Source: Acidovorax sp. Leaf160 (GTDB lineage Bacteria; Pseudomonadota; Gammaproteobacteria; Burkholderiales; Burkholderiaceae_C). Taken from it: DNA of 64,000 bases. Shown in pieces: positions 2,777 to 5,105 of the stretch. Numbering within the stretch: position 1 is the first letter of the stretch; the number at the start of each line of letters is the position of its first letter. A model generated the notes under the pieces. It saw only the letters and a program-made list of their open reading frames with translations, was not told where the DNA came from and searched no databases. The stretch is taken from positions 62,001 through 126,000 of the forward strand of contig NZ_LMOV01000026.1 of NCBI RefSeq assembly GCF_001424265.1, written 5' to 3'. The translations under genes were made by a program, and so were the position numbers.

Positions 2777-2825
2777 ATAGACGGCACCGGCACCAGGGCC
2801 TTGCCCTGCAGGAAACGTGAAAACA

Positions 2826-2841
2826 CTGTAAATTACTACAG
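2826..2841. promoter_or_regulatory. LexA (SOS) box, CTGT-N8-ACAG
   Basis: The sequence CTGTAAATTACTACAG is an exact match to the CTGT-N8-ACAG operator used by LexA in beta- and gammaproteobacteria. It sits in a longer inverted repeat with 7-base arms (2824-2830 and 2837-2843). Its last base is the first base of the GTG start codon of the radical SAM gene. An AT-rich TAAATT inside the box could serve as a -10 element; no good -35 was found at normal spacing. Bound LexA would block initiation, so the gene pair should be DNA-damage inducible. Confidence 0.8.
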
Positions 2842-4154
2842 TGCTCACCGAATCCAAACTCGCCATCCTCGCCGACGCCGCCAAGTACGACGCCTCGTGC
2901 GCTTCCAGCGGCACGTCGTCGCGCAACTCCGTGGGCGGGCGCGGCATCGGCTCCACCGAGGGCGCGGGCATCTGCCACAGCTACGCGCCCGACGGGCGTT
3001 GCATCTCGCTGCTGAAGATCCTGCTCACCAACTACTGCCAGTACGACTGCCTCTACTGCGTGAACCGGGTCAGCAGCAACGTGCCACGGGCGCGCTTTTC
3101 CGTGCAGGAGGTGGTGGATCTCACGCTCGACTTCTACCGCCGCAACTGCATCGAGGGGCTGTTCCTCTCTAGCGGCATCATCCAGACGCCCGACTACACG
3201 ATGGAGCGGGTGGTGGAAGTGGCCCGCGTGCTGCGCGAGGAGCACGACTTCCGTGGCTACATCCACCTGAAGACGATTCCCGATGCATCGCCCGAGCTGC
3301 TGCTGCGCGCCGGCCGCTATGCCGACCGGCTCAGCATCAACATCGAGCTGCCGACCTCGGACGGGCTCGCGGCGCTGGCGCCCGAGAAGGACGGCGCGGC
3401 CATCCAGCGCTCGATGGGCCGGCTGGCCACGCACATCGACGATGCCCGCCAGGCCCGCGCCCAGCAGCAGCCGCGCGGCGTCGCCCCGCAGATCGTCTCG
3501 ATGCCCGGGCGCACGCGCCGCGCCGAGGCGCCCCGGTTCGCGCCGGGCGGTCAGAGCACGCAGATGATCGTGGGCGCCGATGCCGCCGACGACCGCACCA
3601 TCCTCGCCACCAGCGCCCGGCTCTACGGCGGCTACGGCCTGCGCCGGGTGTACTACTCGGCCTTCAGCCCCATCCCCGACGCCTCGCGCTCGCTACCGCT
3701 GTCGGCGCCCCCGCTGGTGCGCGAACACCGGCTCTACCAGGCCGACTGGCTGATGCGCTTCTACGGCTTCACGCACGACGAGATCGTGCCGCCCGCTGCG
3801 GCATCCGGTGGCGATGCCAACGCAGCGGCCGGCATGCTGTCGCTGGACATGGACCCGAAGCTGGCCTGGGCCGTCGCCCACCCCGAGCTGTTCCCCGTCG
3901 ACCTGAACACCGCCCCCCGCGAGCGCCTGCTGCGCGTGCCGGGCCTGGGCGTGCGCACGGTGGACAAGCTGCTGTCGGCCCGCCGCGTGCGGCGGCTGCG
4001 CCATGCCGACCTGGGCCAGCTGCATGTGCCGCTGGGCAAGGTGCTGCCCTTCGTCACCGTGACCGACCACCGCCCCGCCGACCGGCTGCGCGACCCGGCC
4101 CGCCTGCGCGCGCACCTCGCTCCACCGCCGGTGCAGGCGTCGCTCTTTGCCTGA
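2841..4154 (+). CDS. Radical SAM protein, putative DNA modification/repair
   Basis: A 437-residue iron-sulfur enzyme. The radical SAM cluster motif CxxxCxxC is at Cys66, Cys70 and Cys73 (NYCQYDCLYCVNR), and a helix-hairpin-helix DNA-binding motif lies near residues 354-390 (LLRVPGLGVRTVDKLL). This pairing is that of the family annotated as 'putative DNA modification/repair radical SAM protein', which is normally encoded beside a DUF4130 protein, as here (16 bases downstream). The substrate is unknown; by analogy with spore photoproduct lyase it may act on a damaged base. The GTG start at 2841 is the only start consistent with the conserved N-terminus (ESKLAILADAAKYDAS). The LexA box overlaps that codon and there is no ribosome site at normal distance, so the mRNA may be leaderless. 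SOS control is inferred. Confidence 0.88.
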   Translation: MLTESKLAILADAAKYDASCASSGTSSRNSVGGRGIGSTEGAGICHSYAPDGRCISLLKILLTNYCQYDCLYCVNRVSSNVPRARFSVQEVVDLTLDFYRRNCIEGLFLSSGIIQTPDYTMERVVEVARVLREEHDFRGYIHLKTIPDASPELLLRAGRYADRLSINIELPTSDGLAALAPEKDGAAIQRSMGRLATHIDDARQARAQQQPRGVAPQIVSMPGRTRRAEAPRFAPGGQSTQMIVGADAADDRTILATSARLYGGYGLRRVYYSAFSPIPDASRSLPLSAPPLVREHRLYQADWLMRFYGFTHDEIVPPAAASGGDANAAAGMLSLDMDPKLAWAVAHPELFPVDLNTAPRERLLRVPGLGVRTVDKLLSARRVRRLRHADLGQLHVPLGKVLPFVTVTDHRPADRLRDPARLRAHLAPPPVQASLFA

Positions 4155-4169
4155 CGCAGGCAGCCAGGC

Positions 4170-5105
4170 ATGCCGCACGCCGTCACGCTGAGCCATGCGG
4201 CCGACTGGCCCGGTTTTCGCGAGGCCGCGCGCAGCTGCCTGCAGGCGGGCCTCGAACCGGATGCAGTGCACTGGGAGGTGGCCGGCGCGGCGGAAGGTGA
4301 TCTGTTCGGCGGGTTGGCGGAGGGCATGCCGGCAGCGGACGGCCCAGCGGACGCCCCGGAGAACGATGCAGCCGGCGGGGTCGCACCGGTCCACCCTGAG
4401 CCTCCGGCGGATGGGGCGCCCGAAGCGGCCGCAGGCTCCGGGCCCGAATCGACCACCGCAGCGCTGCGCGTGCCCCGCGCTTTCGTCACGCTGGGCGGCC
4501 ATGTGGCGCTGCACAGCGACGCCGACCGCTACGCCCTGCTCTACCGCGCCCTGTGGCGCCTGGTGCACGACCCGGCATTGCGGCACGATGCGCTCGACCC
4601 CGACCTGGCGCGCATGCAGCGCATGGCGGCGGCGGTGCGGCGCGACATGCACAAGATGCGCGCCTTCGTGCGGTTCCGGGCAGTGGACGACGGCGAGGCC
4701 GAGCCGCTGCACGTGGCCTGGTTCGAGCCCGACCACCACATCGCGCAGGCGAACGCGGCATTCTTCGTGCAGCGCTTCACGCAGATGCGCTGGGCCATCC
4801 TGACGCCCGAATGCAGCCTGCGCTGGGATGGCGGCACGCTGCGGGTCGGCCCGGGCGCCACGCGCGCCGATGCGCCGCCGCCCGATGCGGGCGAGGCGCT
4901 ATGGCTGACCTACTACCAGCACACGTTCAACCCTGCCCGCCTGAAGCTGGCGATGATGCGGCGCGAAATGCCGACGCGCTACTGGAAGAACCTGCCCGAG
5001 GCGACGCTGATCGATTCGCTCGCCCGGGGCGCGCACCAACGCAGCGTGCGCATGGTGGACGCCGGGGGCACGGTGCCCCAGCGGCGCATACCGAAGACGC
5101 CCTGA
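4170..5105 (+). CDS. DUF4130 protein, partner of the radical SAM repair protein
   Basis: A 311-residue protein in the same operon as the radical SAM gene. Residues 1-45 and 105-300 make up a DUF4130 domain; the features seen are VALHSDADRYALLYRALW near 112, RDMHKMRAFVRFR near 160 and TRYWKNLPEATLIDSL near 270. A Pro/Ala/Gly-rich insert sits at about 50-100. In many bacteria DUF4130 is fused to a uracil-DNA-glycosylase domain. Here the protein stops about 40 residues after the DUF4130 core and no glycosylase domain is present, so a glycosylase, if needed, must be encoded elsewhere. The role is probably in repair of damaged DNA, inferred from the partner and the SOS box. Confidence 0.82.
   Translation: MPHAVTLSHAADWPGFREAARSCLQAGLEPDAVHWEVAGAAEGDLFGGLAEGMPAADGPADAPENDAAGGVAPVHPEPPADGAPEAAAGSGPESTTAALRVPRAFVTLGGHVALHSDADRYALLYRALWRLVHDPALRHDALDPDLARMQRMAAAVRRDMHKMRAFVRFRAVDDGEAEPLHVAWFEPDHHIAQANAAFFVQRFTQMRWAILTPECSLRWDGGTLRVGPGATRADAPPPDAGEALWLTYYQHTFNPARLKLAMMRREMPTRYWKNLPEATLIDSLARGAHQRSVRMVDAGGTVPQRRIPKTP

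Follow-up and report, generated by a model that had tools for sequence, protein, structure and literature searches.

In the 64-kb stretch of DNA analyzed here (the window), a radical-SAM (rSAM) gene and a DUF4130 gene follow a LexA-type box whose last base is also the first base of a GTG codon. The arrangement raises the question of whether this overlap is a working part of gene control or an accident of sequence, and of what the gene pair does in a lineage where the partner lacks a uracil-DNA-glycosylase (UDG) domain. The best explanation is quite probably an SOS-controlled, leaderless two-gene repair operon with a compressed control region, the features of which are collected in Table 1. The nearest named match of the rSAM protein is from P. 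wautersii (90% identical), two same-genus genomes contain the same rSAM-DUF4130 operon, and the source genome, to judge by sequence, is Paracidovorax or very close to it.

Table 1. Features of the rSAM-DUF4130 locus, in window positions
Feature	Position	Strand	Basis
-35 hexamer place, 17-nt spacing (CTGCAG, a weak match here)	2806..2811	+	class-wide TTGACA peak
LexA operator CTGTAAATTACTACAG	2826..2841	+	sequence read; orthologous box in 63/69 Burkholderiales regions
In-frame TAA within the box, barring upstream start codons	2829..2831	+	direct, codons checked
Predicted -10 hexamer TAAATT, within the operator and 6 nt from GTG	2829..2834	+	inferred from conservation of box positions 4-9
GTG start codon of the rSAM gene; G is the final operator base and predicted +1	2841..2843	+	direct and comparative
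rSAM protein TIGR03916 (COG4277-type), 437 aa	2841..4154	+	NCBIfam and Pfam Radical_SAM
CX3CX2C [4Fe-4S] motif, C66/C70/C73	3036..3059	+	invariant in alignment
C-terminal helix-hairpin-helix-like DNA-binding segment, about residues 352-381	3894..3983	+	weak ComEA/RuvA chain profile matches; high-pLDDT helices
TIGR03915/DUF4130 partner, 311 aa, without UdgX domain	4170..5105	+	NCBIfam, Pfam

Operator and start codon in the window and its relatives

Read directly, CTGTAAATTACTACAG consists of the half-sites CTGT (2826-2829) and ACAG (2838-2841) separated by eight nucleotides, which confirms the perfect CTGT-N8-ACAG box ending on the first base of GTG (2841-2843) that the original prediction described. 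It is the single occurrence of this pattern within the window; shuffles of the window contain at least one in 41% of cases, so the lone box is weak evidence by itself. The start codon could be fixed more closely. In this genus, an in-frame TAA inside the box bars any start farther upstream. Between that TAA and GTG 2841, ATT 2832 is the sole possible in-frame start, and the next nearby one downstream, GTG 2931, would remove K6, K15-Y16-D17 and C20, which are invariant in 39/39 homologues. Translation should therefore start at GTG 2841 or, at least, within the box. A start codon elsewhere, which the original prediction had listed among the outcomes that would count against it, is ruled out on the same grounds, ATT 2832 excepted.

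The survey of relatives proposed at the outset was run on rSAM upstream regions from 80 named genomes and from the 44 positives among 200 same-family genomes, giving 69 distinct Burkholderiales regions. CTGT-N8-[AC]CAG was found within 100 nt upstream in 60/69, versus 0.165 in dinucleotide shuffles. A box is present in 63 of the 69: in 35 its final G opens an in-frame GTG, in 28 the box stands apart, 2-62 nt before the start codon, and the other six regions have none. The overlap, initially regarded as unusual, is not confined to this genome: roughly half of the relatives in Burkholderiales have it (35/69). Conservation among relatives, not the single box, is what marks CTGTAAATTACTACAG as real.

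The fused class has several properties of its own. TG directly follows the box in 35/35 fused cases versus 0/28 others; separate-box relatives start with ATG in 19/28, and in the fused class the operator appears to force GTG as the start codon. The 40 nt upstream of fused boxes have diverged to 31% mean identity, so conservation of the fused box is not mere recent ancestry. In four relatives with extra N-terminal codons (L028, L056, L129, L146), box and GTG are still fused, in frame. Genome-wide, CTGTNNNTTNNN[AC]CAGTG occurs only one to three times per genome in 11 genomes, one occurrence always lying at the rSAM gene. In Acidovorax temperans (L021), TTAAATTCATACAGTG persists beside a degenerate left LexA half-site, so here operator and promoter/start have come apart naturally.

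Proposed leaderless transcription and competing explanations

In the 35 fused cases, box positions 4-9 are nearly invariant as TA[AT]ATT (TAWATT), exactly 6 nt before GTG, which gives the spacing of a -10 element to a +1 at the G of GTG. Among 31 non-redundant fused-class upstream regions, the match to TTGACA peaks at 17-nt spacing (2.45 of 6, the average across all offsets being 1.38; z 3.2). Some circularity attaches to the -10 argument, since LexA itself prefers a TAWAT core; it affects the -35 spacing and the reading-frame evidence to a smaller degree. At this genome's own site the -35 is poor, and a consensus scan found no sigma-70 promoter. Shine-Dalgarno-like triplets are found in the 15 nt before GTG in 0/35 fused cases and in 5/26 at non-overlapping boxes. 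The leaderless or near-leaderless mRNA implied by the original prediction is thus supported indirectly by comparison, through the -10/-35 spacing, the missing Shine-Dalgarno sequence and the in-frame stop. GUG starts on leaderless mRNAs are generally regarded as weak in E. coli. Leaderless transcripts do occur in betaproteobacteria: in B. cenocepacia, the start site of 72 genes coincides with the annotated start codon (PMC4603805).

The anatomy of the sequence, its conservation and the lack of UdgX are direct observations; from the comparisons we infer LexA binding, the mRNA 5' end and leaderless translation. LexA bound at 2826-2841 would sit over the -10 hexamer (TAAATT), the +1 and the G of GTG, and would keep RNA polymerase from the core promoter. 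Upon DNA damage, LexA cleavage would permit transcription from that G; the resulting leaderless message, beginning 5'-GUG, would be translated with no help from a Shine-Dalgarno sequence. The operon would yield a radical-SAM enzyme that ends in a helix-hairpin-helix tail, together with DUF4130, its constant partner; the two would probably act on a DNA lesion by radical chemistry, DUF4130 binding the DNA or the lesion, although both chemistry and lesion are conjecture. UdgX would be an accessory, fused to DUF4130 in many relatives and lost in this lineage. Were this correct, a single 18-bp element would act at once as repressor binding site, core promoter, transcription start and start codon, and would hold that codon to GTG.

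The same sequences could be read otherwise. Transcription might begin upstream of the box, with LexA acting as a roadblock and GTG 2841 used without a Shine-Dalgarno sequence; in favour of this, an AT-rich stretch lies at about 2755-2780, and the scarcity of Shine-Dalgarno-like triplets at non-overlapping boxes suggests that initiation without one is tolerated. However, a conserved upstream -10 is absent, and fused-class flanks are near random save for the column at the -35 spacing and a few bases beside the box, which makes a leadered transcript under LexA control unlikely. The overlap might instead reflect the LexA consensus plus a shared ancestor and mean nothing for translation, a view that draws on its clustering on the tree (8 changes versus 22.5 when shuffled), by which the cases are not independent. 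We consider this highly improbable: TG never follows the box where it is not part of the start codon, the fusion survives changes in N-terminal length, and the upstream DNA is saturated. Going beyond the leaderless operon itself, the fusion of operator, -10, +1 and GTG may have been selected, so that the SOS response would yield a 5'-GUG leaderless mRNA translated via the 70S pathway at times when normal initiation is compromised; we put this forward as a doubtful but possible extension. Translation as well as transcription would then be damage-specific, a consequence we hold just as tentatively.

The same box-start layout is found at one or more other kinds of gene in these genomes. Small orphan proteins (L160:1051-1506, L154:596-1006 and L158:584-931) likewise have a GTG overlapping a CTGTATATTTG-type LexA box. 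These proteins (116-152 aa) gave no Pfam or NCBIfam matches where scanned and have no clear mutual similarity; their genes are possibly a second kind of leaderless SOS gene.

The two proteins and the UdgX domain

The rSAM protein scores 536.5 bits against TIGR03916 (cut-off 343.5). An alignment of 39 homologues has 69% mean column identity and six invariant cysteines, of which C20, C45 and C54 lie outside the cluster motif. In the predicted model (pLDDT 78), the radical-SAM core most resembles those of BioB, HydE and LipA (Z about 13), and the search for solved-structure relatives gave weak domain matches only. As for SplB membership, TIGR03916 is the sole NCBIfam match and the structure list is led by HydE, BioB and LipA; an SPL fold is conceivable. 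Our best guess at the job of the rSAM protein is that it processes lesions by radical chemistry.

The DUF4130 open reading frame begins 15 nt after the rSAM stop, and its product scores 209.3 bits against TIGR03915 (cut-off 112.25) and 125 bits against Pfam DUF4130 (cut-off 27). A low-complexity linker at about residues 44-95 has a pLDDT of about 50 or less in a model of pLDDT 86. Most top structural matches are DHH/DHHA1 proteins and are weak (RecJ: Z 6.6, 194 aa, 5.8 A); Foldseek E-values are above 0.07, and no solved-structure relatives of DUF4130 were found. The letters DHH do occur at residues 188-190, in the second subdomain, with an aspartate that is not conserved. Kinship with RecJ is a structural hint lacking profile support, hhalign of DUF4130 against RecJ having found nothing, and we make no claim of membership in the DHH/DHHA1 superfamily. 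An anti-phage role was also considered, and PADLOC returned no match for either the rSAM or the DUF4130 protein.

A profile scan gave no UDG match in the window protein, which ends soon after DUF4130 and lacks the C-terminal UdgX domain (GEQPG, KRRxH) of the DUF4130-UdgX fusion; the expectation of a partner with DUF4130 but no glycosylase domain was borne out. Relatives such as Variovorax, Xanthomonas and Bradyrhizobium carry a UDG-fold domain fused to DUF4130. This domain matches solved UdgX structures (E 3e-51) and has GEQPG and KRR[IML]H in 80 of 82 motif-bearing ORFs, the other two looking like off-frame artefacts. By motif and fold it is UdgX, a self-cross-linking uracil-DNA enzyme, not an ordinary glycosylase. 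UdgX covalently traps the site that it has excised, and its physiological role is described as largely unknown (PMC10359453).

In a family sample of 43 loci, 22 are short and 21 UdgX-fused, with about seven changes of UdgX presence or absence on the tree. The survey for separate UDG genes, also proposed at the outset, did not turn up a replacement: a free-standing UdgX over cut-off is absent from this genome and from nearly all short-form relatives, the exceptions being G032, with a clearly free-standing UdgX, G097, with an adjacent ORF, and G131, with a second, fused copy. TIGR03914 is over cut-off nowhere in this genome, so UdgX was lost rather than moved. What remains here is Ung, a DNA-deoxyinosine glycosylase, and a protein of UDG fold that is degenerate and has no active-site motif. 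The original prediction that the glycosylase part is dispensable or encoded elsewhere thus needs amending: the second option fails, and the domain in question is UdgX. The operator is kept equally by both forms (18 UdgX-fused and 17 short in the overlap class); as replacements are also nearly all absent, UdgX looks like an accessory rather than part of the core of the rSAM-DUF4130 pair. The converse, that the core job is uracil or AP-site repair and the form without UdgX is degenerate, takes its appeal from the near-even share of UdgX fusions in the family and from regulon papers, which label the pair as UDG-based base excision repair (BER) (PMC8565304). We regard it as rather improbable, given that the rSAM core is nearly invariant in short forms and the operator equally kept. 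Treating UdgX as accessory separates it from the rSAM-DUF4130 core and makes the damage response of Comamonadaceae (SOS) the setting in which to study the two.

The rSAM gene was also encountered on 158 plasmid records, mostly non-mobilizable alphaproteobacterial replicons; in the one plasmid inspected (Paracoccus yeei pTT13-1, L217), it is followed by a gene annotated as UdgX family.

SOS control in other lineages and known systems

The conserved operator at the promoter places the pair in a putative CTGT-N8-ACAG-type LexA regulon and upholds the proposed tie to the DNA-damage response. In the same genome, two CTGT-N8-CCAG boxes precede lexA, and one box of this type each precedes imuA and a PA0069-like rSAM gene (both named by eye from sequence). 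In alphaproteobacterial relatives, GTTC-N7-GTTC or its complement lies upstream of the rSAM gene at 23 loci; this is the known alphaproteobacterial LexA motif, as given in PMC8565304. In many Bradyrhizobiaceae (L058-L096), GTTC-N7-GTTC is accompanied by a second conserved element, GAATCAAAGGGATTC-like, immediately ahead of the start codon.

In Xanthomonadaceae (L192-L216; e.g. L044), GTCTCA-N5-TGAGAC is found upstream of the rSAM gene instead, at 18 loci. Each of 15 genomes has 0-3 such sites, and the reversed control occurs in none of them. Repair-type genes follow at 21 of 25 examined sites (rSAM operon 7, DEAH-box helicase 8, uvrA 3, PA0069 rSAM 2, rmuC 1), and the sites may define a putative DNA-repair regulon of the family.

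Several known systems invite comparison. DUF4130 has been named a predicted mutagenesis-related enzyme (PMC3765255). The motifs GEQPG and KRR[IML]H of UdgX (PMC10359453, PMC10776899) match the fused domain of the relatives, whereas UdgX is absent from the window protein and its genome. Repair radical-SAM genes of the SplB/PA0069 type are likewise LexA-controlled in beta- and alphaproteobacteria (PMC3323433) but belong to another NCBIfam family, the window protein having a predicted fold nearest to HydE-, BioB- and LipA-type cores. Mycobacterium tuberculosis lexA and recX are also SOS-related genes with leaderless mRNAs, a property predicted for the present operon; they differ in belonging to Actinobacteria, where leaderless genes are common, and the accessible part of their description (PMC3062782) does not mention an operator that embeds the -10, +1 and start codon. 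The closest likeness is the COG4277-COG1573 operon, for which SOS control is published in Bacteroidetes, Verrucomicrobia and Alphaproteobacteria (PMC8565304): it has the same radical-SAM family, two-gene layout, a UDG-annotated partner and LexA. Its LexA motifs are others, the accessible text of that study does not report a fusion of operator and start codon, and the operon is described as UDG-based BER, whereas the window partner has no UDG domain. The beta-class box at the rSAM gene may have been reported earlier. SOS control of the pair is thus not new; the variant found here is that operator, predicted -10, predicted +1 and start codon are joined in one element.
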